From: Tetrahymena thermophila SB210
Lineage: Eukaryota > Ciliophora > Oligohymenophorea > Hymenostomatida > Tetrahymenidae
Direction of reading: 5' to 3'
DNA length: 64,000 nucleotides
NCBI RefSeq assembly: GCF_000189635.1
Contig: NW_002476407.1
Location: 620,001 to 684,000 of the forward strand
Numbering within the stretch: position 1 is the stretch's first letter; each line of letters opens with the position of its first letter. Position numbers and translations under genes: made by a program. The notes beneath the pieces are model-generated. The model was not told where the DNA came from and did not search any database. It saw only the letters and a program-made list of their open reading frames with translations. Shown here piece by piece: positions 11,970-49,610 of this stretch.

Positions 11970-12426
11970 AACAACTTAAAATTGACAATATACTTATTTT
12001 ATAATAATATTCTTGCAATTTATATTAATTTTCCTAAACTTTTAATTATTTTTCTTGTTATTTATTTAGTTATTTTATTTTTATGTTAAATTTTGATTCA
12101 AGGTTTGCTCAAATGATCATATTTATTTCAAAAAATTAAATAAAAAAGAAAAAAAATATAATTAATTATTTAATTAGAATGAAAAAATATAGAAAAAAAA
12201 ATAACAAATGAATTAATTAATAATAATAAAAGTAAAATTTGAAAATAAAAAAAATAAGTTTAATTAAGAAAGATAGAAAAAGAAAAAAAAACACGAGTAC
12301 ATTAAAAAGGAAAAAGAAAAATAAACCAAATAAAAAGCTAATAAACAAATTAAAAGAGTTAAATTATATTAAATTCATTTTTTTTACGAAAAATATCACA
12401 ATCCAAAATATATAATCTGTTTTTAC

Positions 12427-12490
12427 TAAAGATAAAGTATAAATTAGAGAGATTAGTGTAATTTCTGATGTACCTTTACAACTGATTTCA
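12427..12490 (-). pseudogene. Relic LRR exon at the array's 3' end
   Basis: This matches the 90-bp LRR exon next to its donor-like GTAAAAACAG but lacks 19 bp from the middle (the part encoding the LGSALAN core). Nineteen is not a multiple of three, so the frame is broken. The start of the unit is also changed. It is the last unit in the transcribed direction and is probably dead, or has been reused as a non-LRR terminal exon. No other terminal exon is obvious downstream of it. Confidence 0.6.
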
Positions 12491-13121
12491 AGAAGGGCTA
12501 AGCGGCTCGAGTGGGTTAACTTTTTTATTTTTTTTTAATTTTATTTTATTTTTATAATATAGGGTAGATGAGGGGTTAGGATAGTTGAATAAAGATATTT
12601 AGATGATGATTGGTAAGGTTAAGATTAATATTTTTTCATTTTTGGCTGAGATTTATTCTACATTTTACTATGTACTGTATAATTAATTTTAGATATAAAA
12701 ATAGTAATAAATCTATCTATATTTTAGGTTAAATTATCTTATTACAAAATAAAAAAATAAAACACATTATTTTCTATTATTCAAATATTTAATATTTATT
12801 CATCCTTTTTTCATCACTTGTTTATCATGATCAGAAATTTATTGTAAAGACAACTAATCTTTTTGATTTAAGACATTTGCTTAATAGTTTCAATTATTAT
12901 GGTCCTTCAATTAATTTTCCACTTAAATTATTAAATAAAGTAAATTACTAAAAAAATTAAATAGAAAAAATATTAAAATTAAAAATAATATTAGAAAATA
13001 AAATAAAAATAAAAATAAATCAAATTAAAAGTTAATAAACAAAATCATAAGAGTTATATTGTTTTAAATTCATTTTTATTACTAAAAATATGACTATCCA
13101 AAACAAATAAACTGTTTTTAC

Positions 13122-16100
13122 CTAAGATGAAGTGTTAAATTAGAGAGATGAGTGCAATTTGCTAAAGCAGTACCTAAGCCTGATGAACCTTTATCACCAA
13201 TTTAATTTTAACTTTTAAATATTAAAGAAAAAATAAATAAATAAATAAATAAATAATTAATTAGTTAGTTAGTTAGAAGGAAAAAATGAAGAAAAAATAA
13301 TAAGAAATGAACTAATTAATAAATAAAAAAGAAAAATTTTAAAATAAAAAAAGGTATTAAATTAAGAACAATAGAAAGAGAAAAAAATGCAAATACAATA
13401 AAAAAGAAAAAGAAAAATAAATTAAATAAAATGCTTATTAACAAATTAAAAGAGTTTTTATGTTTTAAATTAATTTTTATAACTAAAAATATCACAATCC
13501 AAAACAAATAAACTGTTTTTACCTAAGATCAAGTTTCAAATTTGAGAGATTAGTGCAATTAGTTAAAGCAGAACCAAAACCTGAAGCTCCTTAATCACCA
13601 ATTTAATTATAACTTTTTAAATATTGAAAGAAAAAATAAAAAATTAATTAGTTAGTTAGTTATTGAAAAGAAAAAAAATAAGAAAATATAATAGGAAATG
13701 AATGAGTTAATAATAATAATAATAATAAAAGCAAAATTTGAAAATAAAAAAAGGATTTAAATTAAGAAAGATAAAGAAAAAAAAAAACACAAATACAATA
13801 TTAAATAATAAGAAAAATAAATCAAATTCAAATTTAATAAACAAATTAAAAGATATATATTGTTTTAAATTCATTTTTAAAACTAAAAATGTCACAATTC
13901 AAAATAAATAAACTGTTTTTACCTAAGATGAAGTGTTAAATTAGAGAGATGAGAGCAATTTGCTAAAGCAGAACCTAAGCCTGATAAACCTTTATCGCCA
14001 ATTTAATTTTAACTTTTTAGATGTAAAAGAAAAAAAAAAATGAATTAGTTGTTAGTTAGAAAGAAAAATGAAGAAAAGATAATCGGAAATAAATTAATTA
14101 ATAATAATAAAAGTAAAATTTGAAAATAAAAATCTAAGTTAAATTAAGAAAGATAGAATGAAAGAAAAAAAAAAGCACAAGAACATTAAAAAAGATAAAG
14201 AAAAATAAACCAAATAAAAAGCTAATAAACAAATTAAAAGAGTTATATTGTTTTAAATTCATTTATATAACTAAAAGTATCACAATTCAATACAAATAAA
14301 CCAATTTTACAAAAGATCAAGTGCTAAATTAGAGAGATTAGTGCAATTTGCTAAAGTAAAACCTAAGCCTGAAGCACCTTCATCACCAATTTTATTGTTA
14401 CTTTTTAAATATTGAAGAATAAATAAAAAACTAATGAGTTAGTTAGTTAGCAGGGAAAAATAAAGAAAAAATTATAAGAAATGAATTAATTAATAATAAT
14501 AAAAGAAAAATTTGAAAACAAAAAAAGGATTTAAATTAAGAAAGATAGAAAGAAAAAAAAAATGCAAGTACACTAAATAAGAAAATGAAATCAAATAAAA
14601 AGCTAATGAATAATTTAAATGAGTTATATTGTTTTAAATTCATTATTATAACTAAAAGAATCACAATCCAAAATAAATAAACTATTTTTACAGAAGATCA
14701 AGTGTCAAATGAGAGAGGTTAGTGCAATTAGTTAAAGCAGAACCTAAACCTGATGCACCAATTGCACCAATTTTATTGTAACTTTTTAAATATTAAAGAA
14801 AAAATATATTATTAATTAGTTAGTTCGAAGGAAAAAATAAAGAAAAAATAATAAGAGAAATAAGAGATTAATTAATTAATGATAATAAAAACAAAATTTG
14901 GAGAAAAAAAAAAAGTTAAATTAAGAAATATAGAAATAGAAAAAAAAAAAACACACACACATATACAATAAAAAAAGTAAAAATAAATAAAATAAAAGTT
15001 AATAAAAAATTAAAAGAGTTATTTTGTTTTAAATTTATTTTTATAACTAAAAATTTCACATTCAAAACAAATAAACTGTTTTTACCTAAGATCAAGTGCT
15101 AAATTTGACAGATTAGTGCAATTTGCTAAACCAGAACATAAACCTGATGCACCTTTATCGCCAATTTTATTGTAACTTTTTAAATATTGAAGAAAAAATA
15201 TATAATTAAAAAAATAATAATAAAAAAATTTTTTTTTTAAATCAAAATATCCCCTAAACAGAAAAGTAATCTACATATGTATTCTATTTGTATGTAGCCT
15301 TGAAAAAGGCAGTACCTCAGTGTACTAAATACATTTATATAATTAAGAAACATAGCAGAAAAAAAACACAAAAACCAATAAAAAGGTCAAATTAAAAGCT
15401 GATAAACAAATTAATTGAGTTATATTGTTTTAAATTCATTTTTATAACTAAATGTATCACTATCCAAAACAAATAAATTGTTTTTACCGAAGATCAAGTG
15501 TTAAATTGGAGAGATTAGTGCAATTTGATAAAGCAGAACCTAAGCTCGATGAACCTTTATCACCAATTTAATTTTAACTTTTTAAATATTGAGGATAAAA
15601 TATAAAATTAGTTAGTTAGAAGGAAAAAATGAAGAAAATATAATAAGAAATAAATTAATTAATAATAATAAAATGGGTTAAATTCAGAAAGATAGAAAGA
15701 AAGAAAAAAATAAGTACACTAAATAAGAAAAAGAAAAATAAATCAAATAAAAAGCTAAGAAACTTATTAAAATAGTTATATTGTTTTAAATTCATTTTTA
15801 TAACTAAGAGTATCACAACCCAAAAAAAATAAACTGTTTTTACCGAAAATAAAGTTTCAAATTAGAGAGATTAGTGTAATTTGCTAAAGCAGAACCTACT
15901 CCTGATGCACATTTATCACCAATTTAATTGGAACTTTTTAAATATGGAAGAAAAAATATATAATTAATTAGAAGAAAAAAATGAAGAAAAAATTATAAGA
16001 AATGAATTAATTAATAATAAATAATAATAACAAAATTTGAAAATAAAAAATGAGTTAAATTAAGAAAGATAGAAAAAAATATAAGTACATTAAAAAAGAA

Positions 16101-19100
16101 AAAAAAATAAATCAAATAAAAAGCTTATAAGCAAATTAAAAGAGTTATATTGTTTTAAATTCATTTTTATAATTAAAAATATCACAATCCAAACAAATAA
16201 ACTGTTTTTACCGAAGATCAAGTTTCAAATTTGAGAGATTAGTGCAATTTGCTAAAGCAGAACATAAACCTGATACACCTTTATCACCAATTTTATTGTT
16301 ACTTTTTAAATATTGAAGAAAAAATATAGTTAATTAGTTATTTATCAGGAAAAAGTGAAGAAATGAAAAAATAAATAGAAATTAATTAATTAATAAAAAT
16401 AAAAACAAAATTTGAAAATAAAAAAATGAATTAAATTAAGAAAAATACAAAAAGAAAAAAAACACAAGTACAATAAAAAAGAAAAAGAAAAAGAAATCAA
16501 ATAAAAAGATAATAAATAAATTAAAGTTATATTGTTTTAAATACATTTTTATAACTAAAAATATCACAACCCAAAACAAATATAACTTTTTTACCCAAGA
16601 TGAAGTGTTAAATTAGAGAGATTAGGGCAATTTGCTAAACCAGAACCTAAGCCAGATGAACCTTTATCGCCAATTTAATTGTTACTTTTTAAATATTGAT
16701 TGTAAAATAAATAATTAGTAAGTTAGAAGGAAAAAATGAAGAAAATATGATTTAATCAATAAAAGCAAAATTTTAAAATAAAAAAAGTAGTTAAATTAAG
16801 AAAGATAGAAAAACCACAAGTAGATTAAAAAAGAAAAAGAAAAATAAATCAAATTAAAAGAGTTTTTTTGTTTTAAATACATTTTTATAACTAAAAGTAT
16901 CACAATCTAAAACAAATAAACTGTTTTTACAAAAGATCAAGTGTCAAATTAGAGAGATTAGTGCAATTTGCTAAACCAAAACCTAAGCCTGATGCATCTT
17001 TATCACTTATTTAATTGGAACTTTTTAAATATTGAAGAAAAAATAAAATATTAATTAGTTAGTTAGTTATTTATAAGGAAAAAAATAAGTAAATATAATA
17101 AGAAATGAATTAATTAATAATAATAAAAGCAAAATTTGAAAATAAAAAAATTAGTTAAATTAAGTAAGATAGAAAGAAAAAACACTAGTACAATAAAAAA
17201 TAAAAAGAAAAATAAATCAAATAAAATGCTATTAAATTCATTTTAATACTAAAAATATCACAACCCAAAACAAATAAAACGTTTTTACCCAAGATGAAGT
17301 GTTAAATTAGAGAAATTAGTGCAATTTGCTAAAGCAGAACCTAAGCTTGATGAACCTTTATCACCAATCTTGTTGTTACTTTTTAAATATTGAAGAAAAA
17401 ATATATTGTTTATCATTTAGTTAGAATGAAAAAATGAAGAAAATGATATGAATTAATTAATAAATATAAAAGCAATATTTGAGATTAAAAAAAGGAGTTA
17501 AATTAAGAAATATAGAAAGAAAGAAAAAAAATGCAAGTACATTAAAAAAGAAAAAGAAAAATAAATCAAATAAAAAGCTAATAAACAAATTAAAAGAGTT
17601 ATATTGGTTTAAATTAATTTATATAACTAAAAGTATCACAATCAAAAACAAATAAACTGTTTTTACAAAAGATCAAGTGTCAAATTAGAGAGATTAGTGC
17701 AATTTACTAAAGCAGAACATAAACCTGATGAACCTTTATCACCAATTTTATTGGAACTTTTTAAATATTATATAATTAGTTAGTTAGTTAATCCATTAAG
17801 AAAAAAATGAAGAAAATATAGTAAGAAATCAATAAATTAATAATAATAAAACCAAAATTTAAAAAAAAATAAGTTAAATTAAGAAACATAAAAAAACACA
17901 AGTACAATAAAAAATGAAAAAGAAAAAATAAATCAAATAAAAAGCTAATAAACTAATTAAAAGAGTTATGCTGTTTTAAATTCATTTTTATAATTAAAAA
18001 TATCACAACCCTTTACATAATAACCTGTTTTACCTAAGAAGAAGTGTTAAATTAGAGAGATTAATGCAATTTGTTAAAGCAGAACCTAAGCCTTATAAAC
18101 CTTTATCACCAATTAGATTGTAACTTTTTAAATATTGAAGAAAAAGTATATAATTAATAAATTATTTAATTAGAGGGAAAAAATTAAGAAAAAAAAAACT
18201 AAATGAACTAATTAATAATAATAAAATCAATATTTGAAAATAAAAAAATAAGTTAAATTAAGAAACATAGAAAAAGAAAAAATCATAAAAAAATTAAAAG
18301 AGCTTTATTGTTTTAAATTAATTTTTATAACTAAAAATAGAACAATCGAAAACAAATAGACTGTTTTTACCTAAGACGAAGTGTTAAATTAGAGAGATTA
18401 GTGCAATTTGCTAAAGCAGAGCCTAAGCCTGATAAACCTTTATCACCAATTTTATTGTTACTTTTTAAATATTGAAGAATAAATATATTATTAATTATTA
18501 GTCATTTTTTGAGTTGGAAACTAAGTTGATTCGAATCAAATTAATTATATTTTCAAATACTCCTCTATATATAACCTAGGGAAATAATTAATTTCAAACC
18601 CTAAAAACCTAGGGCTCACAAAAAATTTGTTCATTATTTTTGACTAGGTTTTCATATATGCTCTTTCATAATATCATATCGAAAATTGGTGAATCGTAGT
18701 AGTTTCCAACTCAAAAAAATGAGTATTAGTTAGTTATTTAAAAAGGAAAAAATGAAGAAAAAATAATAAGAAATGTATTAATTTATAATAATAAAAGCAA
18801 AATTTGAAAATAAAAAAAATGAGTTAGATTAAGAAAGATAGATAAAAAAAACAAAAATACAATAAAAAAGAAAAATAATAATAAATCAAATAAAAAGCTA
18901 ATAAACAAATTAAAAGAGATATATTTTTTTAAATAGATTTTTATAACTAAAAATATCATAATCTAAAGCAAATAAACTGTTTTTACTCAAGATCAAGTGT
19001 CAAATTAGAGAGATTAGTGCAATTTTCTAAACCAGAGCCTAAGTCTGATGCCCCTTCATCACCAATTGAATTGTAACTTTTAAATATTGAAGAAAAAATA

Positions 19101-19469
19101 TAAAATTAGTTTGTTAGTTAATTAGTTAGAGGGAAAAAATGAAGAAAATATAATAAGAAATGAATTAATTAATAATAATAAAAGTAAAATTTGAAAATCA
19201 AAAAATGAGTTAAATTAAGAAAAATAGATAGATAGAAAAAAAACACAATTAAATAAAAAAAAGAAAAATAAAAATAAATCAAATAAAAAGATAATAAACA
19301 AATTAAAAGAGTTATATTGTTTTAAATTCATTTTTAAAACTAAAAATATCAACACCCAAAACAAATAAACTGTTTTTACCTAAGAAGAAGTGTTACATTA
19401 GAGAGATTAGTGCAATTTGCTAAAGCAGAACCTAAGCCTGATGTACCTTCATCACCAATTTTATTCTAA
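13122..19469 (-). CDS. Leucine-rich repeat protein of 17 identical-size exons (partial)
   Basis: Seventeen exons of exactly 90 bp on the minus strand, at (plus coordinates) 13122-13211, 13523-13612, 13923-14012, 14311-14400, 14692-14781, 15086-15175, 15488-15577, 15844-15933, 16212-16301, 16595-16684, 16931-17020, 17289-17378, 17667-17756, 18034-18123, 18371-18460, 18987-19076 and 19380-19469. Each begins after AG and ends before GTAAAA-type donors, always phase 2, so each exon adds exactly 30 residues. The consensus is YNQIGDKGASGLGSAL then ANCTNLSNLTLDL, a ribonuclease-inhibitor-like LRR; proteins with such repeats are known to me from Tetrahymena. No exon has an in-frame TGA. No signal peptide, first exon or terminal exon could be found, so the gene is incomplete as read. 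LRR proteins normally bind other proteins; the partner is unknown. Confidence 0.85.
15271..15326. other. Three adjoining short hairpins inside an LRR intron
   Basis: In the intron between exons 15086-15175 and 15488-15577 the usual repeat sequence is replaced by a local segment. It contains CTACATA..TATGTAG (15271-15297), GCCTT-GAAA-AAGGC (15297-15310, a GNRA-type loop) and AGTAC..GTACT (15311-15326). The three stems abut. None of the other introns has this segment. It could be an inserted small RNA gene or a remnant of a mobile element. Confidence 0.45.
18502..18722. mobile_element. MITE-like 221-bp element with 22-bp inverted ends
   Basis: The ends TCATTTTTTGAGTTGGAAAC.. and ..GTTTCCAACTCAAAAAAATGA are inverted repeats of 21-22 bp differing by one T. 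The interior has no coding frame but carries two CCTAGGG motifs. The flanks end in TTATTAG on the left and begin GTATTAG on the right, suggesting a short target duplication such as TATTAG. It sits in one intron of the LRR array, and removing it restores that unit to about the normal length (395 bp), which is strong evidence for insertion. Confidence 0.82.
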
Positions 19470-19720
19470 CTTTTTAAATAATGAAAAAAAATAAAAATTA
19501 ATTAGTTAGTTAGAAGGAAAAAGTGAAGAAAAAATAATAAGAAATGAATTAAATAATAATAATAAAAGCAAAATTAGAAAGTAAAAAATTAATTTAAATT
19601 TTGAAAGATAGAAAGAAAAAAAATACAAGTACATTATAAAAGAAAAAGGAAAATAAATCAAATAAAAAGCTAATAAACAAAATTAAATGAGTTTATTTTT
19701 ATCAAGTATAAGTGTTAGAA

Positions 19721-21530
19721 TGAAAAATTAATAAAAAATATCTAATAATAAAAAATGAATAGTAAATTTTAAAAATTAAAAGTGAAAATTATGTTAAAAT
19801 CACTAAACAAGTATTTGTTTTCATAAAATTAATGAAGATAGGTTAGAATTTCTATTAGAACGATAGCATTATAAATAAATTGTAAGTGAAATAAAGAGAA
19901 ACTATTAATAATAATAGTAATATTTATAAATTAAATATACCTCAGATCAATATGGAGAACCTAATGAGATTAGAGTGAAGAGTTTAAAAACTTTTTATAT
20001 TATTAAAATAATTTAAAATAAATTTATAAAAAAATAAATAATTACTTCTTCTAATTTTTTATAATAATTAATCTATTACATAATTTTTTTTCTTCAAAAA
20101 TACTGAATAGAAATTAATAGAAATTTAATTAATTATAAGTGGATAAAAAGAATATTAAATTAATTGAATTTATAAATTTGTTTTTAGTAAGAGATATCAC
20201 AAAAAATTTAGTGTAACATTGATTATTTAATATTAATATTTCTATTTAAAATGTTTACTTCAAAATATAGTAGGAAATAGAGATGAGTAGTTAGTCATAT
20301 GCTGAAAAAATTCTAGTAATTACTGTTCTTAAATTTTATATAAATAATTTTTATTTTGTAGATTTTTCTATTTTAGTATAGTAATGAGGAGAATTTTTAT
20401 ATTATCTCTAATTATTCTCTAGTCAGATTAGTTTTTACTGCTGGTACATGTTATTTAGATATATAGCTTGCATAGATCAAATAAGCGCATTTATGCCTAT
20501 TTAAATAAATAGATTATACATTTCTATATCATCAACAATTAATATAAATGTTAAAAAAAATTAATAAACAAAATATAAGAAATAATTTATTTACTATGCC
20601 AAGTTTTTCTCCTCCAAACATATAACATTGGAGGGCTAAATTTACACATTTTAAAAAATATTTTAACAAAATTTAAATATTAATTTTTTAATAAAATTTA
20701 TTGAAATTCCTCTGCTGATATAATGCACCCAACCCAATAAGCAATAAGCGGAATTTTAATACCAGTATAGTTATTAATGCGTATTTTATTTATTAAAAAT
20801 TATATTTATATTTTAATATGATATTTAATAAAAATAGCATTTTGTATATTTCCTCTTCATAACTAATATAGAAATAAAATTACTTTATTTTAATAAGATT
20901 AAAATTTAAGTACTATTTTGTTCATATATATGGTTATTGTTTTCATAGATATTCTATTAAATAAATATGTTAATTTTATATTTTACATAGACTTTGTTAT
21001 GTCAGAATAAAATATATGAAAGGTGATGAACTAGGAATAGATGAACTTTAGATTGCTAAACTATTTAGCATAGATAAATCACATGATTTGTCAATTACTT
21101 TATTTTAATAAGATTAAAATTTAAATACTAATTTGTTCATATGGTTTTTGTTTTCATAGCTATTCTATTAAATAAATATGTTAATTTTATATTTTACATA
21201 GACTTTGTTTTGTGAGAATGAAATATATATATATAAATAAATAAGTAATAAGAAATAAAGAAGAAATATATTAGATTTAAAGAGAAGTAAAATTAATAAA
21301 CTTAAAGTTTGTTTTAATGAATTTAATAAAGGAAAAATTAAATTCAAATTGAGTTGATTTATAAAGAAAAAAAATAAATTAAAGTAAAAATTGAAAGATG
21401 ATAAATTTTTTTTAAATAATATTAGAGGAGTTTACAATAAATAAGATATAAAATATAAACTACAATTAATTATGTAATTAATTAAACTTATTAGTTTATT
21501 CTTAAGATATTACTTGATAGATTTTTTGTC
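19721..21530. other. AT-rich spacer with one direct duplication and a hairpin
   Basis: This DNA lies upstream of the minus-strand LRR array. A block of about 135 bp at 20881-21018 recurs at 21096-21230 with few changes (shared TACTTTATTTTAATAAGATT and TTTTACATAGACTTTGTT). A perfect 7-bp hairpin CCTCCAA..TTGGAGG is at 20611-20634. No convincing first exon for the LRR gene was found here. Confidence 0.5.
20881..21230. repeat. Direct duplication of about 135 bp
   Basis: Copy one spans 20881-21018 and copy two 21096-21230. They match almost throughout, with small gaps around a TATATATGG stretch. No coding content is seen. Confidence 0.8.
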
Positions 21531-25739: not shown

Positions 25740-28170
25740 CTTATACAGCTTTTTTGAGAGTTGCATAAGATATCTTTAGGATATTTTACTCTTACTAGTA
25801 AGTTTTATCTTCGCCTTATTTTTCTCATTTATAGCTTTTTTTAGGAGCCATATTTGATATTTTTCAGGTTTTATTTTATTTTCTTACTATTTTGTTTGTA
25901 AGTTTATTTCACCTTATGTTTTTCATTTATGGTTTTTTTTAGGAACTATATTTGATATTTTTCAGGTTATTTTTGTCTTACTTCGTAAGTTTTATTTCTC
26001 CTTATTTTTTTCAATTACAAATTTCATTATTTGATATCCTTCAGGTTTTATTTTATCTTTCTACTTTTTTTGTAAGATATTTTCACCTTATTTTTTTCAT
26101 TTATGCTTTTTTTAGGAGCATATTTGATATTTTTAGGGTTATTTTCTCCTACATAGTAAGTTTTATCTTCACCCTATTTTTCTCATTTACAGCTTTTTTT
26201 AGGAGCTATATTTGATATCTTTCAGGTTTTATTTTATTATCTTACTATTTTTTTGTTAGCGTATCTTCACCTTATTTTTTTCAATTATGACTTTTATTCC
26301 GAACAATAAATGATATTTTTAAGCTATTTTATCCAAAATAGCAAGTTTTATGTTCGCCTTATTTTTTTCAATTACAGTAAATTGTATTTAATATTTTTCA
26401 GGTTTATTTCATTGACTTCCTATTTTTTTTGTAAGATATTTTCACCTTATTTTTTTCATTTATGCCTTTTTTAGGAGCATATTTGATATTTTTGGGGTTA
26501 TTTTCTCCTACATAGTAAGTTTTATCTTCACCTTATTTTTCTCATTTATAGCTTTTTTTAGGAGCCATATTTGATATTTTTCAGGTTTTATTTTATTATC
26601 TTACTATTTTTTTGTTAGCGTATCTTCGCCCTATGTTTTTCATTTGTAAACTTTTTTTAGGAGTCACATATGATATTCTTTAGGTTATTTTGTCTAGCAT
26701 AGCAAGTTTTTTCTTCGCCTTATGTTTTTCATTTACAATCTACCGTAATTAATATTCTTCAGGTTTTATCTTAATAGCTTCCTACTTTTTTGTAAGATAT
26801 TTTCACCTTATGTTTTCATTTATGCTTTTTTTAGGAGCATATTTGATATTTTTAGGGCTATCTTTTCTTACATAGCAAGTTTTATGTTCTCCTTATTTTT
26901 CTCATTTATAGCTTTTTTTAGGAGCTATATTTGATATTTTTCAGGTTTTTATTTTATTGTCTTCCTACTTTTTTCTTTGGAATATCTTCACTTTATGTTT
27001 TTCATTTATAGTTTTTTTAGTGGTCATATTTGATATTTTTTAGGTTATGTTATCTAACATAGAAAGCGTTATCTTCGCCTTATTCTTTTCAAATGTGGAT
27101 TTATTTAAAGGTTTTATCTTTACCTTTCTACTTTTTTCGTAAGATATTTTCGCCTTATTTTTTTCATTTATGCCTTTTTTAGGAGCATATTTGATATTTT
27201 TGGGGTTATTTTCTCCTACATAGTAAGTTTTATCTTCACCCTATTTTTCTCATTTACAGCCTTTTTTAGGAGTTTTATTTGATATCTTTCAGGTTTTATT
27301 TTATTATCTTACTATTTTTTTGTTAGCGTATCTTCGCCTTTTGTTTTTCATATATATGGTTTTATTCCAAATAATAAATGATATTTTTAAGCTATTTTAT
27401 CCAAAATAGCAAGTTTTATGTTCACCTTATTTTTTTCATTTACAGTAAATTGTATTTGATATTTTTCAGGTTTATTTCATTGACTTCCTATTTTTTTTGT
27501 AAGATATTTTCACCTTATTTTTTTCATTTATGCCTTTTTTAGGAGCATATTTGATATTTTTGGGGTTATTTTCTCCTACATAGTAAGTTTTATCTTCACC
27601 TTATTTTTCTCATTTACAGCTTTTTTAGGAGCCATATTTGATATTTTTCAGGTTTTATTTTATTGTCTTACTATTTTTTTTTGTTAGCGTAATCTTCGCC
27701 CTATGTTTTTCATTTGTAAACTTTTTTTAGGAGTCACATATGATATTCTTTAGGTTATTTAGTCTAGCATAGCAAGTTTTTTCTTCGCCTTATATTTTTC
27801 ATTTACAATCTACCGTATTAATATTCTTCAGGTTTTATCTTAATAGCTTCCTACTTTTTTGTAAGATATTTTCACCTTATGTTTTCATTTATGCTTTTTT
27901 TAGGAGCATATTTGATATTTTTAGGGCTATCTTTTCTTACATAGCAAGTTTTATGTTCTCCTTATTTTTTTCATTTATAGCTTTTTTTAGGAGCTATATT
28001 TGATATTTTTCAGGTTTTTATTTTATTATCTTCCTACTTTTTTCTTTGGAATATTTTCACTTTATGTTTTTCATTTATTATTTTTTTAGTTGCCATATTT
28101 GTTTGATATTTTTCAGGCTATGTTATCTAACATAGAAAGGTTTATGTTCGCCTTTATCAATTTTCGTTGT
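25740..28170. repeat. Higher-order tandem repeat: ~90-bp monomers in a ~360-bp unit
   Basis: Monomers of about 90 bp share the plus-strand phrases TTCACCTTATTTTTTTCATT, TTTTTTAGGAGC, ATATTTGATATTTTTCAGG and a GTAAG-like step. Four diverged monomers form a unit of about 360 bp that repeats. The marker AGGAGCATATTTGATATTTT starts near 26114, 26473, 26833, 27181, 27541 and 27902, so spacings are 359, 360, 348, 360 and 361 bp. Copies of the same monomer type in successive units are much more alike than neighbouring monomers, as in satellite higher-order repeats. On the minus strand some monomers contain an INEKNKVKI-type open segment, but TGA occurs in every frame. Confidence 0.9.
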
Positions 28171-36696: not shown

Positions 36697-38493
36697 ATGC
36701 AGAATTAAGAAAACTAAATAAAAATTATTAAAAGTATAGGGAAGGGTAGCTACGGCGAGTAAAATATTTGTTCTATAAAAATTTACAAAAAATTAATTGC
36801 TAATGACATAGTTAAAATAAATTTTTATTTAAAAGAGTTTTTCTTTGCGAGGATCAGCTTGGACATAAAATAGCACTAAAAGCAATTAAAAGAAATTTGC
36901 TTGATGATAAATTTATCAATTCGTACAAAACAGAGCTGAATGCTCTAAAAAAATTGTAATCAGCTTAAAATAAATCAACTTTGAATGATATTTGTTATTA
37001 AGCTGATATAGAGAATGCAAATTTGGTTGGATTGTTATCAAAAAGATCTATGTCTTTTGATCAAGAAATGTGCTTTTTAAAAGAATAAAATAGCTCAGTT
37101 AATTGTCAAGATCATCAGGTTAATGCAAAATCCAATATTATCCAATTTGTAAAGAGCATTGACAACTACCCATTTTAGTTCAATAATAAAACTTACTCTT
37201 GCCATGCATTATTTATTGAGTATGCAAAAAATGGCTGTCTAGGAAGTTACTTAGAGAGCCCAAAGCTAACTTTTTTACCCATTAACATTCTGCGTAGAAT
37301 AGCCAAACAGCTTTTTTAAGGTACTAATTATGTTTTAACGTGAATTTAGCTTTATTGATGATAGACACTTCTCTTAAAGAGGTGTTTATATATAAGGTCT
37401 ATTGAATTATAGTTAAATACAATTAGTATCATTTTAATTATATATACCATATTAAAAATTCAATAAAGTTTAATTATATTATATTAAATAAACAAAAGGT
37501 ATACAAGAAATGCATTCAGCGCATTTAGTTCATAGAGATATCAAAGAAGACAATATTGTTTTTGGGGAAGGATATACTCTTAAATTAATAGATCTTTCAT
37601 TCGCTGGACGTAATGATGATGAAGTATGTGGTACACAAAAATATATATCACCTGAAATACTAAAAAAGGAGGTTCAAATGTTAAACTGTAGCTCTTCATA
37701 AAGTAATTCAGTATAGTAAGAATAAAAAGTCTAACAAAAAGAATTGAAGTTTTAGAGATTTGCTAAAATAGATACTTTCGCTGCTGGTGTAGTCCTGTTT
37801 AGACTGGCAACTAAGATTTACCCCTTTGGATCTGCAAGTTAATTTGATTATAAGTATAAGTATATTGTAAGCAAGCAATATGACCAATTTTGGTCAAATG
37901 TCAAATTCATAGTTAGCAGTGTAAATGAAAACAATCCTGATACTCAATTCAATCATTTCTTATAAAATCGTATATAAGAGGAGACTTTATAAGATTTAGA
38001 TACAAGCTCTAATAGTTATGATAGTAATTCAGAAGCAGAAGATAACTAGGAAGAAAATGAAAATCAAAGCAGCAGCAGTTAATCTAATTAAGAAAACCAA
38101 ACTGAAAGTTAAAGCTCCTATAACAGAAAAAAGTCAAATATTACAAACCGTAGCTCTAAAAAGTTATTATCTTACATAAAAAGTAAGAGAGCGGTGAGCT
38201 AAGTTAATTTTTTTTTGACTCCTAATGAATAAGCTTTCTTTTAGTAGTTAATGAGCGAATAAGATTTAAATAGTATTGCTTTATCAAACTAAGAAATAAA
38301 TGAGAGCTATTAATAAAACATTAAAGAACAGATTGAATAGCTAAAAGATTTGATCTAAAACCTCCTCTCTTATGAAATAGATTCGAGGTATGGAATCTAA
38401 GAAGCTCTTAATCACCCTTTCTTCACTTAATTCCCAAATAGCTATGCAAGTACAAAAGATTTGGAATAATTTTTCTCTGTCTTTAATTCGTGA
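36697..38493 (+). CDS. Serine/threonine-type protein kinase with DLS in place of DFG
   Basis: Three exons, 36697-36758, 36836-37320 and 37499-38493; 1542 nt, 513 residues. The first junction rebuilds the glycine loop (IGKGSYGEVFLC, residues about 14-25) across the intron, which fixes both splice sites. Lys36 lies in IALKAIK; residues 60-135 are an insert; the catalytic loop is HRDIKEDN with Asp196; the metal-binding motif is DLS (214-216) instead of DFG; the activation segment ends ISPE (232-235). A FAAGVVLFRLAT segment gives helix F. Residues about 305-400 are a Q/S/E/N-rich insert before the final helices and HPFF. The aspartate of the DFG position is kept, so activity is plausible. No regulatory domain is visible; it may belong to one of the expanded ciliate kinase families. 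Confidence 0.9.
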
Positions 38494-39936
38494 AAACAAA
38501 CAGGATTGACAAGAGATTTATGAGGATTTCTTACATAAAAATCTCTTTAAAGAGCAGTAAATAATTTGAATGAAGAAAGCAAAGCAACTTAATATCATAC
38601 AAAAAATAAATAAATAAATTCTTCTTTGTTTAATAATTAATTAAATAATCACCTTGATAAAAAGAAGAAAAAATTCTATAATAAAAAATAAACAATTAAT
38701 AAATAAATCAGTAGGTTTTTTTAAACCACCAAATAAATATAAAAAATCTTCCATAAAATTAAAATCATCACTCTAACGTTAAAAGCTATATTATCTTTAC
38801 AAATTTCAATTTCCTTTATAATATAAGCAAGAAATAATCAGATTATAAATTAAATAAAGACTTCTTGATTTGCTCGAAATATACTTAAATTATTAAACAA
38901 AAGAAAGAATGTACTAGATAAAGTAGATTATTTATAGATGTGTTCTTTCACTTGTTTATCTAATCTATTCCTTTTAAATAGGCTCTATAATTAAGAATGC
39001 TTAATCCAAGAGCCTCTAGCTATTTCTTAATTGCAAATGTTATTTGTTTATTTGTTTATAAATCTATCTATCTATCATTTACTCTATTTTAACTTGTTAT
39101 AATTCAAATTGCTACCAACTAATTTAACATGATGTCATTCTTAAAATAGACGAAAAGTATTTTTCATATCTATTATAATTTAATCTTAATATTCGCCAAA
39201 AGGTTTTATTTTACTAATCTCACAAAATTTTGATTATGTGTTTGTGCTTCATTCATTATTTTTTTCCCTTCTAAAATACTTAACTTTTTTATTTCAGTTT
39301 CTTTCTATTTTTAATTATCCGCCTAGGTGTTTAAAAAGAAATTTAGGTTTTTGTGTTAATGCGTCACTAATTTCACTCCAGTGTTTAAAATTTACATAAT
39401 CTGCAAAAAATTTCGATTGTTCTAAAATTTCATTCATAATATTGTTTAAGAAGAATGAAGTATTCTCATTTTCTATCTAAGGAAAGAGAGAGATTATAAT
39501 TATTTGTGTTCTCGTTCTCTCAGATAAATGCAAATAGAAGATTTTGCAGTAGACGCAATACTGAAAGTTTAAGAATTTCCCCAAAAATTTGAGGAATTTC
39601 TTTATAGTAGTTAGTTAGGTGGCTAATTTAAATTACTTATCTATTTTTCTCGAGAATATCAATGTTAAATAAATGGATAATTAATTTTTTTATAATATTT
39701 AATTTAACAAATAGTTTTATAAAAGGAAACAAAATTCCAAAATAAATAATATTTTTATAAAGATAAATAAATAAATAAACTAATATCGATCAAAATATTA
39801 TATAATACTAAAATCTTTATTTGTTTATCTCAAAATTAGACCACTCTGTATGCTATTGATACTATAAATACAACAACAGACACAGTGATTTATCAATTCT
39901 GAATTTTCCAAATTAAATATTTACAAAAAAAAAATT
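38494..39936. other. Intergenic, no feature recognised
   Basis: AT-rich DNA after the kinase stop and before the eIF5-like start. No RNA gene, repeat array or sustained reading frame was identified. Confidence 0.55.
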
Positions 39937-40851
39937 ATGGACATTTTTGATAACTACGAAGAAGACGAGTACGATAGGTACAAAGTTATTAAGCCAGTAG
40001 TTTAAAAACATAAGAGATTTTTCTTCATTCAAAATCTTTAAAAACTTGCTGATAATCTTTAAGTTCCTGATACATACTTAGTTGAATATATTTGCATAAA
40101 ATCAAACTGTTAAAAAGAAATTTATCAAAAGTCTAATTACTTAATAAAAACATCACTTTGTTAAGTATAAGTAGAAGAATTAATAAATGAATTTGCTAAT
40201 ACTTACTTGAAATGTTCTAAATGTCATCTACTCGAGTACAAAATCAAAGTAAATTAAGCTAAATCGCTAATATAATCTAAATGCGCTTCCTGCGGTTATT
40301 TAAAAACACACCCATTAAAAGAGGAAATGAATTAATTTATTTTCAACAATCCTCCTGCGATGAAAAAGAAATTTGACATTGAATCAGGTAGAGGATTCTT
40401 AAATGATTACAATCAAGATTTTGACTACTCTGATTAAGAAGATGAAAATATAAATTATTCTTACGAGGATAGTGACTCGCAAAGCGAGATCTAAGAAGAA
40501 GAATACTTCGAAGCTTAAAATTAGGAGAATTCGTAATCTGGAGATATAAGCTTTGAAAATGATTAGGATTAAGAAAATGAGTTAAAAGTAGAGTAATAAC
40601 CTTCTGTAAAGGAAAACGAATATGATGATAATTAAAATACTAATGAATGTGATTCTTGTGAACAGTCCTCTTCTAATTAAAACTATTAGACAATAATTGA
40701 TAGAAAATCCTTTTAAGATGATGTAATTTAATAGAATAGATTTGAGCAATTTATGTAGACAAATTAGTAGATGAATGTTAAAAATTCAAATCGAATTTTT
40801 TAATTATAAAGTGAGAGTTAAGTAAATAACCTTGAAAAAGTGTGTTCCTGA
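39937..40851 (+). CDS. eIF5-like protein: N-terminal and zinc domain without W2 domain
   Basis: A single exon of 304 residues. Residues 10-135 match the eIF5 N-terminal fold by pattern. There is a YDRYK segment with Arg14 where eIF5 has its GAP arginine in FYRYK. A KLADNLQVPDTYLVEYI helix follows, then a four-cysteine zinc site at Cys93, Cys96, Cys116 and Cys119 (KCSKC.. and KCASCGY), then FIFNNPP, a close match to the eIF5 FILKNPP signature. The rest (135-304) is acidic and rich in E, D, Q, N and S. The C-terminal W2/HEAT domain that binds eIF2-beta and eIF1 in true eIF5 is missing. In other eukaryotes eIF5 stimulates GTP hydrolysis by eIF2 at start-codon choice. This could be a divergent paralogue with a new partner-binding tail. 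Confidence 0.85.
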
Positions 40852-44519: not shown

Positions 44520-46830
44520 TTACAAACCCTTAAAAAAAATAAACTTTTCTAGAAGATAGTAGGATTATCTTTAGAATTATTAAGATAGATTATATAAAAA
44601 AAATTTTTATTTCCATCACAATAACATTTTTAAAAAAGTATCTTTGGATATTAATTAAACTCAATAGTGAGATTAAGTAAAGCTATGAGTTATTATTTTA
44701 TTTTTCTCAGATATAATAAGATTACTATAAAAATCTTGTGATATTGATTTTGTTATTCTTTTAATTTCTCAAGTATAAAATTACTAATTAATTTTTTGAA
44801 TAACTAAAATTTGCATGTTAAAAAATATAATTTAGAATATGTTTGTTTACTTTAAAAAAAACAAAATAAATTAACAATAAAATAAAATCTATTTTTAAGA
44901 TGAATTTAATCTTTATAAATTGAATACGTTTTTGTTTTATGAATTAGTATTTCTTTGTTTAAAATATTTCTTTTATTCACTTTATTTTTCATTTATAATT
45001 AATTCTTATACTGGTTTACATAGTATTTTTAAAAAAATTAGTACAATTTTCTTTATTCTCAAATATTTGTGATTATAATTTTATTTGAGTTTATCATCAA
45101 AATATTTTTTATGCATCAGAATCTTTTATTAGTCAATAAAAACCTAATTAGATTTAATTAAAATTAAATTTGATTGCCTACTAAATTACCACATTTCAGA
45201 ATAATTTTAATTAAATACCTCATTTAAGTAAATAGCATTGAATATTTTAGATATTCTTTTAATTTCTCAAATAAATAGTAAATAATAAATAATAAAATTA
45301 TAAATTGAGATTTGGAAAAATCGAATTTTATGTAAAATAATTAAAATTAAAATATCATTATAATTTGAAAATTAAAAAAAAAATAATAATAATTAGATAA
45401 AACTTATCTTTAAACTAATGAATCCATTTTTCAATAAATAATTTGGCTAATTCCCTCCAAAATAATTCCCTCAAGGTAAATACCCTCCATAATAAGAATT
45501 TTAACAGCACCCACCTCAAACTCAACAAGGATATTAATAGTATCCTCCTTAACAATAAGGATATCAACAATATCCTCCTTAACAATAAGAATATCAACAA
45601 TATCCTCCTTAACAATAAGGATATCAACAAAATCCTCCTTAACAATAAGGATATTAACAATATCCTCCTTAACAATAAGGATATTAACAATATCCTCCTC
45701 AAAACCAGTAGCAATATCCTCCACAGAATTATCCCCCCAATGCTCAACAAGGCTCTTATGGTTAATATCCTCCTCCTCCCTAATAATTTGGTAACTAGCC
45801 TCCTCCACCTTAATTTAATGGCTAGTCATAAAATACTAGTTAAGATTAAACATAGTGTAATAATAACCATCCTAATTACACTAAAGATAGATTAGAATAA
45901 GGCAAAACATTAGACCAAGACAAGTGGCTAGTTTCCTAAAATTAAAAATTCTAAGCAGGAATTTAAGAAGATGGTAACTTAGTAGTTTTCTCTTTAGTTA
46001 ATAACTAGCGTATTTGCACATTTTCATCAATGAACAAAAAATAGGGAACTGCTCCTCATAAATTGGCATTATTTTCAAATGGTAACTTGGAAATAAAAGA
46101 ATATCGTAATGCTGTATTGTGGTAATCAGATACTACTAATTAAGGTACTGGTCCATATATTCTTATCATGCAGAATGATGGTAATTTAGTATTGTTTGAT
46201 AGAAATAAAAATGTCACATGGAATACAAATACTAAAAGTAATTACCCTGTTACTGATTAACCTAAGTGCAACAACAATCATGGTAATTACACAAAAGATA
46301 GATTGAAATAGGGTAGCAGATTAGAATAAGACAAATGGTTGGTTTCTTAAAACTAGAAGTATTATGCAGGAGTTTAAGCAGATGGTAATTTAGTAATTTC
46401 TACTAATTAAAACTTCAGTCCTTACAGCTGTATTTGGTAATCTATGACTAAGAAAAAAGGAAATGCACCTAATTGCTTGGTACTTGAAAGTAACGGCTCA
46501 ATGAGAGTTTAAGATTATCGTAATGCCACATTGTGGGATAGCGATACCTTAAATTAAGGTATGGGTCCTTTTACTCTTATCATGTAAAATGATGGTAACT
46601 TAGCTTTATTTGACAGAAATGATAGAATTACATGGTGTACTAATACATCAAGAGAATGAATTTGTATCAATAAATATATATTTTGATAAAAAGATTTTAA
46701 AAATTGTTGTGAATTATCCATTTATTTATATATTTTGTGAATATTTTTAATAGAAAGCAAGTATTCTCATTAATTTAATATTTTAACATCTAATTATTTT
46801 ATTAACAATAAATAAAAAATTACATTCTTT
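44520..46830 (+). repeat. Lectin segmental duplication, copy 1
   Basis: About 2.3 kb including lectin gene 1 and its flanks. The upstream DNA (AGTAGGATTATCTTTAGA, TTTATTTCCATCACAAT, TTCTTATACTGGTTTACA) and the downstream DNA (ATTTTGTGAATATTTTTAAT, GCAAGTATTCTCATTAATTT) recur in the same order in copy 2. The two copies are direct and almost adjacent. Confidence 0.88.
45418..46659 (+). CDS. B-lectin protein 1 with N-terminal Pro/Gln/Tyr repeats
   Basis: An intronless frame of 413 residues. Residues 1-146 are a proline/glutamine/tyrosine region with about six copies of QGYQQYPPQQ. There is no signal peptide (MNPFFNKQFGQ), so the protein is probably cytosolic. Two bulb-type (B-) lectin domains follow, at about 147-283 and 284-413, each opening CNNNH.NYTKDRL. 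Their mannose-site-like motifs have the form Q-x-D-x-N-x-V-x-Y/F, as in QNDGNLVLF, QEDGNLVVF and QADGNLVI. The tip strands include NAVLWQSDT and NATLWDSDT. The design recalls Dictyostelium comitin, a vesicle- and actin-associated mannose-binding protein with GYP-rich repeats, but in the opposite domain order. Many glutamines here are TAA or TAG, so the gene is invisible in the standard code. Confidence 0.92.
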
Positions 46831-48256
46831 TTTATTAACTGCAGTTTTATGTTTTGATTAAATTAGGTGTATAAAGTTAAAAAGATAAATGGACATCATT
46901 TTATACCCTTAAAAAAATAAAATTATTTAGGAAATAGTAGGATTATCTTTAGAGTGATTAAGATAGATTATAAAAAAATGTTTATTTCCATCACAATCAT
47001 ATTTTTAACTAGGTATCTTTGGATTTTAGTTAAACAAAATAGTAAGATTAAATAAACTTATGAGTTATTATTCTATTTTTCTCAAATAGAAAAAAGGTTA
47101 CTATAAAAATCTTGTGATATTGATTTTGTTATTCTTTTAATTTCTCAAGTATAAAATTACAAATTAATTTTTTGAATAACTAAAATTTGATTGCAGACTT
47201 TAAAAAATATAATTTAGGATATGCTTGTTTACTATAAAAATAAAATAAATAAGCAATCAAATAAACTCTAGTTTGAAGATGAATTTAATTTTTAAAAAGT
47301 TTACATAAATGTTTGAAGAATTGATAAACACAAGTTTTAATTTTTTTATTAATTAAATATGTTTTTATTTTAATATATTTGAATTCATTTTTCTTTATTT
47401 TAAATTTTTATTTTACTCACTTTATTTTCATTTATAATTAATTCTTATACTGGTTTACAAAGTATTTTTTTTAAAATTAATACAATTTTCTTTATTCTCA
47501 AATATTTGCGATTATAATTTATTTTGAGTTTCTCATCAAAATATTTTTTATTCATCAGAATCTTTTCTTATCCAATAAAAACCTAATTAGATTTAATTAA
47601 AATTAAATTTGATTGGCTACTAAATTACCACATTTCAGAATAATTTTAATTAAATGCATTATTTAATTAAATAGCTTTGAACATTTATTACCATAAATAT
47701 TCACTTATTTTTTAAATCTTAATATTTGTACAAATAAATACTCTCACAAGAAGAATTGCGAAAAACAAAATTAATACACAGCTTATTCAGCTATATTTAT
47801 AAAATTTAGATTATATTATTTAGATATCCATTTCATTATTTTAGTTTTTATAAACATTTACCTATCTATATCCTAACTGATGATAATAATAAAAAGGACA
47901 TTTAGATTAAAATTACTTTGCTAACTAGATAGACTTATAAATTGTAAAGTGATTTTATGTTTCTTAAATGAAAAATACAAGTTACACATAAAAGTGTTCA
48001 ATATTTTCTTTTATAATACATTCTTTATATCCTTTTATTATTTACAGAGAATTATAATTTGGGATATTTGGAAATTTGTTTTTTAGGACTATTTTAGATA
48101 TTCTTTTAATTTCTCAAATAAATAGTAAATAAAAAAAAAATTATAAATTTAGATTTGGCAAATCAAATTTTATGTAAAATAATTAAAATTAAAATATCAT
48201 TATAATTTGAAAATAAATAAAAAATAAGCAATTAGATAAAAATTATCTTTAAACTA
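46660..48256. other. Spacer between lectin genes 1 and 2
   Basis: It holds the 3' flank of copy 1, a gap of about 75 bp, and the 5' flank of copy 2. Relative to copy 1, the copy 2 flank contains about 400 extra bases (roughly 47692-48090) just before the shared block TTTTAGATATTCTTTTAATT. The extra segment has no evident terminal repeats or coding frame. Confidence 0.75.
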
Positions 48257-49610
48257 ATGAATCCATTTTTCAATAAATAATTTGGCTAATTCCCTCCCTA
48301 AAACCCTCAAGGTTAATATCCTCCATAATAAGGATTTTAACAGTACCCACCTCAACAAGGTTATTAATAGTATCCTCCTTAACAATAAGGATTCTAACAA
48401 TATCCTCCTTAACAATAAGGATATCAACAATATCCTCCTTAATAATAAGGATATTAATAATATCCCCCTCAAAACTAGTAGCAATATCCTCCACAGAATT
48501 ATCCCCCCAATGCTCAGCAAGGCTCTTATGGTTAATATCCTCCTCCTCCTCCCTAATAATTTGGTAACTAGCCTCCTCCACCTTAATTTAATAGCTAGCC
48601 ATAAAATACTAGTTAAGATTAAACATAGTGCAATAATGACCATCCTAATTACACTAAAGATAGATTACCACAAGGCAAAACATTAGACCAAGACAAATGG
48701 CTAGTTTCCTAAAATTAAAAATTCTAAGCAGGAATTTAAGAAGATGGTAACTTAGTAGTTTTATCTTTAGTTAATAACTAGCGTATTTGCACATTTTCAT
48801 CAATGAACAAAAAATAGGGAACTGCTCCTCATAAATTAGCATTATTCTCAAATGGTAACTTGGAAATAAAGGACTATCGTAATGCTGTATTGTGGTAATC
48901 AGATACTACTAATTAAGGTACTGGTCCATATATTCTTATCATGCAGAATGATGGTAATTTAGTATTGTTTGATAGAAATAAAAATGTCACATGGAATACA
49001 AATACTAAAAGTAATTACCCTGTTACTGATTAACCTAAGTGCAACAACAATCATGGTAATTATACTAAAGATAGAGTGAAATAGGGTAGCAGATTAGAAT
49101 AAGACAAATGGTTGGTTTCTTAAAACTAGAAGTATTATGCAGGAGTTTAAGCAGATGGCAATTTAGTAATTTCCACTAATTAAAACTTCAGTCCTTACAG
49201 CTGTATTTGGTAATCTATGACTAAGAAAAAAGGAGATGGACCTAATTGTTTGGTAGTGGAAAGTAACGGCTCAATGAGAGTTTAAGATAAGCGTAATGCC
49301 ACATTGTGGGATAGCGATACCTTAAATTAAGGTATGGGTCCTTTTACTCTTATCATGTAAAATGATGGTAACTTAGCTTTATTTGACAGAAATGATAGAA
49401 TTACATGGTGTACTAATACATCAAGAGAATGAATTTATATCAATAAACAAATAAATAAATATATTTGCATTAAAATATTTTAAAAATTGTTGTTAAATAT
49501 CCATTTATTTATATATTTTGTGAATATTTTTAATATATAGCAAGTATTCTCATTAATTTAATATTTTAACATCAATCTAATTATTTTATTAACAAAAAAT
49601 AATTAATTAA
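46896..49610 (+). repeat. Lectin segmental duplication, copy 2
   Basis: The second copy of the lectin segment, about 2.7 kb. It is collinear with 44520-46830 apart from the ~400-bp extra piece upstream and a gene shortened in its Pro/Gln repeats. The lectin-coding halves of the two copies are nearly identical. Confidence 0.88.
48257..49432 (+). CDS. B-lectin protein 2 with N-terminal Pro/Gln/Tyr repeats
   Basis: An intronless frame of 391 residues, a recent duplicate of the lectin gene at 45418. It differs mainly by a shorter Pro/Gln/Tyr repeat (residues 1-124, about four repeat units instead of six), consistent with repeat slippage. The two B-lectin domains begin at about 125 and 262 and keep the same QxDxNxVxF-type motifs and tryptophan tips. 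It has no signal peptide and the same C-terminus (WCTNTSRE). The near-identity of upstream DNA suggests the two genes share regulation. Confidence 0.92.

Follow-up and report, generated by a model that had tools for sequence, protein, structure and literature searches.

A tandem run of 17 exons of exactly 90 bp, located in a 64,000-nucleotide stretch of Tetrahymena DNA (hereafter the window, meaning this whole stretch), belongs to a gene of a large family already described for the genus, namely the thousands of leucine-rich repeat (LRR) genes assembled from 90-bp exons (Xiong et al. 2019, PLoS Biol, PMC6564038; cited throughout from its available text). The gene looks intact, and very probably functions as an ordinary gene. 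It lies on the minus strand between 20081 and 12831, where 20 predicted exons form an apparently complete open frame of 1,707 bp; spliced in order, these would yield one mRNA encoding a protein of 568 residues composed of LRRs only. The window gene is a member of the published family, and its architecture was already known. To the published description we add three conserved exons (the start exon, exon 2 and the terminal exon), which we did not find mentioned in the available text of PMC6564038. A repeat element that appears to be aimed at LRR exons is the part of our results most worth a second look.

An earlier note on this DNA had described the array as 17 exons of exactly 90 bp, each with phase 2 on both sides and free of in-frame TGA, set among mutually similar introns, and all of this was borne out. 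Read with ciliate code 6, the exons run on the minus strand from 19469–19380 (the first) to 13211–13122 (the last), with phase 2 on either side in 17/17, an in-frame TGA in 0/17, and 16 mutually similar introns between them. Each 90-bp exon encodes one LRR. TGA is frequent in the two other frames (15/17 and 7/17 exons); therefore, composition cannot account for its absence from the coding frame. An AG precedes every exon (within TTTAAAAG or TTTAAAAAG in 16 cases and TCTAAAAAG in one), GTAAAA follows directly 3' of all 17, and the G+C content was 0.29–0.37 for exons and 0.13–0.20 for introns. Intron length was 246–312 bp in 15 of the 16 introns and 526 bp in the other, the latter because of an insert (18505–18718), of which the genome contains a single further copy, itself partial (85% over 144 bp). 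A six-frame profile scan of the window detected no further LRR exons beyond these 17 and a stub at 12463–12440 (E = 0.033), and the remaining matches of that scan were short and weak (E = 1.9 or worse).

The window occupies positions 620001–684000 of a contig of 977,500 bases. The host genome looks like the macronuclear genome of Tetrahymena thermophila, because C4A2 telomere repeats are present at both ends of contig C4 and the exons for telomerase reverse transcriptase match PDB 6d6v_A without a difference over the exon stretches displayed, 6d6v being an entry that we take to be from T. thermophila. A search for the array sequence elsewhere in this genome (101.0 Mb in 445 contigs, to which all genome-wide counts refer), as had been proposed earlier, found it throughout. 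One array unit gave at least 290 matches, and the pattern TTTAAAAAG-N90-GTAAAAA occurred 3,337 times, compared with 31 occurrences at a spacing of 91 and 46 at a spacing of 87 (reversed-pattern controls for spacings of 90, 91 and 87: 7, 8 and 6, respectively). We sampled exons from the window and 20 other loci, the latter picked among the top-scoring matches to a single window unit, giving 284 matches in all; 265 were 90 bp long, 12 were of another length and seven had no splice pair nearby, while 263 of the 275 full-length matches measured exactly 90 bp. As the model used to find these matches was built from the window's own exons, the sample leans towards the window. None of the 265 sampled 90-bp exons contained an in-frame TGA, and leucine frequency over the 29-residue exon (n = 265) was 0.95–0.97 at positions 12, 16, 22, 25 and 27, and 0.89 at position 29.

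These observations agree with what is in print. Arrays of exactly 90-bp exons were reported in ten Tetrahymena species, with more than 98% of the introns preceding 90-bp exons in phase 2, and in T. thermophila 1,500 of 1,874 LRR genes have at least one 90-bp exon (PMC6564038). In the youngest group of T. thermophila LRR genes intron length peaks at 257 bp, compared with a genome norm of 56 bp (PMC6564038). Besides this paper, no second one on LRR arrays of 90-bp exons turned up in a full-text literature search.

We placed the first two exons and the terminal one by comparing the gene with related loci elsewhere in this genome (Table 1). The conserved 5' module has at least 43 matches in the genome besides itself (a lower bound, as 40 of 650 candidates were scored), its commonest core is 20284–19696, and it was present in 18 of the 20 sampled array loci. 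At the other end, the family terminal exon was seen in 11 other aligned array ends, which belong to a set of 30 array ends that includes the window's own. The conserved start and end modules of the family are thus both present in this gene, and a full gene model of this kind can be used to annotate family genes from DNA. The earlier note had delimited the feature as 12110..19720 with no strand given. This interval approximates the stretch over which unit homology extends (about 12136–19705), but it did not hold as an outline of the gene: it lacks the two exons that precede the array and did not recognise the terminal one, and 12515–12136 is a broken unit past the end of the gene. The 24-bp remnant within the latter (12515–12492) was considered as a last exon and dropped once the terminal exon had been located on its upstream side.

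The predicted product consists of LRRs along its whole length (Pfam LRR_6, E = 1.2e-46), and its relatives by sequence in the PDB include RanGAP (E = 2.1e-05) as well as DRC5 and further LRR proteins from solved assemblies. A Pfam match to T6SS_HCP (7.8e-08) was taken as a chance match to a repetitive protein. Hydropathy, used here in place of a dedicated predictor, indicated no membrane segment (highest 19-residue value 1.11) and no signal peptide (N-terminal 9-residue maximum 0.23). With repeats like those of ribonuclease inhibitor and RanGAP, the protein probably binds other proteins inside the cell.

Several observations weigh against an ordinary, intact gene whose array grew by duplication of a single unit. 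The gene model was read from genomic DNA alone. The family start codon, which is ATG in 12/12 other aligned copies, is ATT in the window; the codon after it has turned into ATG, so an in-frame start is retained. Substitutions per site relative to the unit consensus were alike in exons (0.098) and introns (0.103), and the ratio of nonsynonymous to synonymous changes, relative to expectation, was 0.70 in the window and 1.16 over the 265 sampled exons. We therefore make no claim of selection at the level of residues: purifying selection is evident on frame and stops (seven stop-making changes across the exon sample against 60.5 expected), and is not shown for residues. Moreover, mean identity between exons of the window array was flat over separations of 1 to 9 (Spearman -0.137, P = 0.086); unequal crossing over in simple steps would be expected to leave another pattern, except if it was old or its products were scrambled.

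The lost family start codon and the exon substitution rate close to that of introns, together with the insert within one intron and the broken unit and element remnant directly downstream, would also suit a dead or unexpressed array, that is, a gene-like repeat out of use. We consider this improbable, as it sits poorly with the substitute in-frame ATG, the 19 usable introns, the conserved terminal exon, and the absence of any frameshift or TGA in the 1,704 coding bases before the stop. Indels point the same way. Relative to the unit consensus, exons carried none in 1,440 bp (16 units), compared with 66 events in 4,163 bp of intron (15/16 units, omitting the one that carries the insert); 22.8 exon indels would be expected at the intron rate (P about 1e-10), and 6.4 if the quietest intron stretch set the rate (P = 0.0016).

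For the functional gene that we prefer, the array would have been built in the germline from one exon-plus-intron unit, duplicated many times over and exchanged ectopically, and the phase-2 symmetry of its cassettes is most plausibly a trace of that growth. The layout is that of textbook exon shuffling by symmetrical exons. Unequal recombination, raised earlier for this locus, stands as family history, since unequal crossing over, possibly with a REP retrotransposon, has been proposed as the maker of the arrays (PMC6564038), and likeness within arrays points weakly the same way here. Exon identity was 80.2% within arrays and 77.3% between arrays; for the window exons, mean identity was 84.4% within the array and 78.7% to other loci. 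Of 265 exons, 69 had their nearest counterpart in their own array, compared with a mean of 3.3% and a maximum of 6.8% when labels were shuffled.

This greater likeness within arrays could also be read as a sign that unequal exchange still alters exon number at the locus, with strains or clones differing in count. Exons 15 and 17 of the window array are 96% identical, and the repeat number among T. thermophila LRR genes ranges from 1 to 51 and differs between close paralogues (PMC6564038), both of which would fit such a length-variable locus. However, we regard it as unlikely: identity did not fall with separation, only 2 of 34,980 exon pairs reached 96.6%, and the data come from one assembly. 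Because identity is approximately independent of separation and pairs at 96.6% are so few, present exchange at the locus, as suggested earlier, is not supported. The window array shows little trace of recent exchange, and its unit identities are mostly 80–90%, with units 11 and 17 excepted. An alternation of two unit types (A/B) was rejected, as even and odd separations differed by -0.19 points of identity (P = 0.68). Separately, a stretch at about 15220–15345, in an array intron other than the one with the insert, looks unlike the shared intron sequence, and its unit aligns at only about 70%–77%.

The 24-bp motif directly downstream of the gene has 39 exact copies in the genome and is the end of a longer repeat element, which was found with both ends at eight loci (L021–L027 and L036), all outside the window. 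The element body is 394–397 bp, its copies are 99.0%–100% alike, and it carries an (ACAT)n tail of 3–21 units. In 8/8 copies with both ends the element occupies the same place in the 90-bp exon (about nucleotides 7–19) and is flanked by duplications of 11–13 bp that follow the sequence of the local exon; the adjoining host LRR sequences are 74.4%–94.3% alike. The exon motif AAATT occurs within six bases after the end motif in 33 of the 39 exact copies, and of the six copies without it, two (in the window and at L023) likewise lie within an LRR exon. L020–L027 were found with a query spanning the junction between element and exon, which favours this insertion-site outcome, while L036 and the count of 33/39 are free of that bias; L020, in which the left element end is missing, was left out of the eight. 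The distribution looks like repeated independent insertion at one exon target, and the sequence suggests a young, retroelement-like repeat.

We tentatively propose, as a possibility that we hold to be somewhat doubtful, that the LRR exon is a fixed landing site for this element, and that its insertions seed breakage and exchange, leading to growth and scrambling of the arrays. Each unit presents the same target, in register with the others, and for this reason insertions would seed exchange between units. If true, an exon-aimed element would make it possible to put the published idea that retrotransposition helps to build arrays (PMC6564038) to a concrete test. The 24-bp remnant is at most a candidate for the published 54-bp REP tail; the end motif has 39 exact copies here, compared with 169 REP tails in print (PMC6564038). 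The words SINE (short interspersed nuclear element) and tRNA are absent from the available text of PMC6564038 and, as whole words, from that of the 2016 germline genome paper (PMC5182062), and a literature search gave no title on such an element in Tetrahymena among the matches listed. By eye, the element end has a tRNA-like look (B-box-like GGTTCGAATCC), which was supported by neither ARAGORN nor Rfam: no tRNA genes were found in the window, none by ARAGORN in 10 loci, and in four of those 10 loci Rfam gave no match at E values up to 1.

We also considered whether the locus generates diversity by alternative splicing. The 17 exons are, as had been claimed, frame-neutral cassettes, all interchangeable in frame, so that many LRR isoforms could arise by skipping 90-bp exons with the frame kept in any subset. 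RNA sequencing of T. thermophila in 2012 identified 139 cassette-exon events among 1,474 alternative-splicing events (24,725 genes), and introns at cassette-exon events averaged 279 bp, the longest of four classes (PMC3274533, available text), which is close to the 246–312 bp observed here and to the published peak of 257 bp for young LRR genes (PMC6564038); we infer from this that some of these events may lie in LRR genes. We nevertheless judge a splicing generator highly improbable. The splice sites of the array form one uniform set in which we saw no weak or competing class, and cassette exons make up only 139 of the 1,474 events in a paper whose main text, as available, does not mention LRR or leucine (PMC3274533). 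Short reads from near-identical exons are also easily misplaced, which would mimic skipping. A retained intron would run into a stop in 15 of 16 cases. The available main text of PMC6564038 mentions neither alternative splicing nor lampreys nor variable lymphocyte receptors (VLRs), and a search of later literature on the splicing of LRR genes gave no title on it among the matches listed. No feature of the locus lends support to diversity made by splicing, as far as can be judged from DNA.

Table 1. Coordinates of the LRR gene and associated sequences within the window.
Feature	Position	Strand	Basis or remark
Conserved 5' module (upstream region, start exon, exon 2, part of intron 2)	19696..20284	-	Common to other LRR arrays
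Exon 1, 36 bp, start codon	20046..20081	-	Alignment of 13 copies; GT donor
Exon 2, 50 bp, phase 2 at end	19941..19990	-	Alignment of 13 copies
17-exon array with 16 introns	13122..19469	-	90-bp exons, splice sites, phase
Exon starts of array	19469, 19076, 18460, 18123, 17756, 17378, 17020, 16684, 16301, 15933, 15577, 15175, 14781, 14400, 14012, 13612, 13211	-	
Insert in second array intron, 19-bp terminal inverted repeats	18505..18718		Inverted-repeat analysis
Terminal exon, 91 bp, TGA stop	12831..12921	-	Same terminal exon after other arrays
G+C-rich repeat-element remnant, 24 bp	12492..12515	-	Joined to broken LRR unit downstream of gene
Broken LRR unit (internally deleted exon remnant followed by intron-like sequence)	12136..12491	-	Not part of gene

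Other features were observed elsewhere in the window. Two tandem 5S rRNA genes are located at 224–342 and 465–583 (116.2 bits each). A tandem array at 25769–28154 has a period of about 360 bp with sub-periods of 86–99 bp, and within it the plus strand is open under code 6 over 26291–28000. Two similar open frames (45073–46656 and 47972–49429) each encode a B_lectin domain, with 30-bp tandem repeats near their 5' parts, and are likely a tandem gene pair. Code-6 open frames also encode a protein kinase domain (36985–38490) and an eIF-5/eIF-2B domain (39889–40848).

The lamprey VLR genes, to which the array had been likened, do not exist as complete genes in the germline; somatic assembly completes them with cassettes lying nearby, giving a product that is secreted or anchored. 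The use of LRR units as building blocks of a repertoire is a shared theme, but the parallel proved weak, because the window gene is complete in the genome, with a full frame from ATG to TGA and no assembly from partial cassettes, and its protein has neither signal peptide nor membrane segment or anchor as judged by hydropathy only. LRR proteins like RanGAP and ribonuclease inhibitor share repeat type and repeat length with the window protein, although the sequence matches are weak and function is not transferable. The closest likeness is to the group III genes of the 90-bp-exon family (PMC6564038). These have tandem arrays of at least three exons of exactly 90 bp (17 consecutive ones in the window), flanked by phase-2 introns (17/17 in the window), and their units are alike at the DNA level and separated by long introns, both of which are features of the window array. 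Leucine is conserved at six positions of the group III exon, as it is in our sample, and the two further share the same species, T. thermophila, with many copies genome-wide. Published features of group III also include a pericentromeric or subtelomeric location in the micronuclear chromosomes and a REP retrotransposon (54-bp tail) next to the units; what adjoins the window array is the 24-bp element remnant, at most a putative REP tail. The window introns (246–312 bp) are somewhat longer than the 257-bp group III peak, which we do not consider an essential difference.

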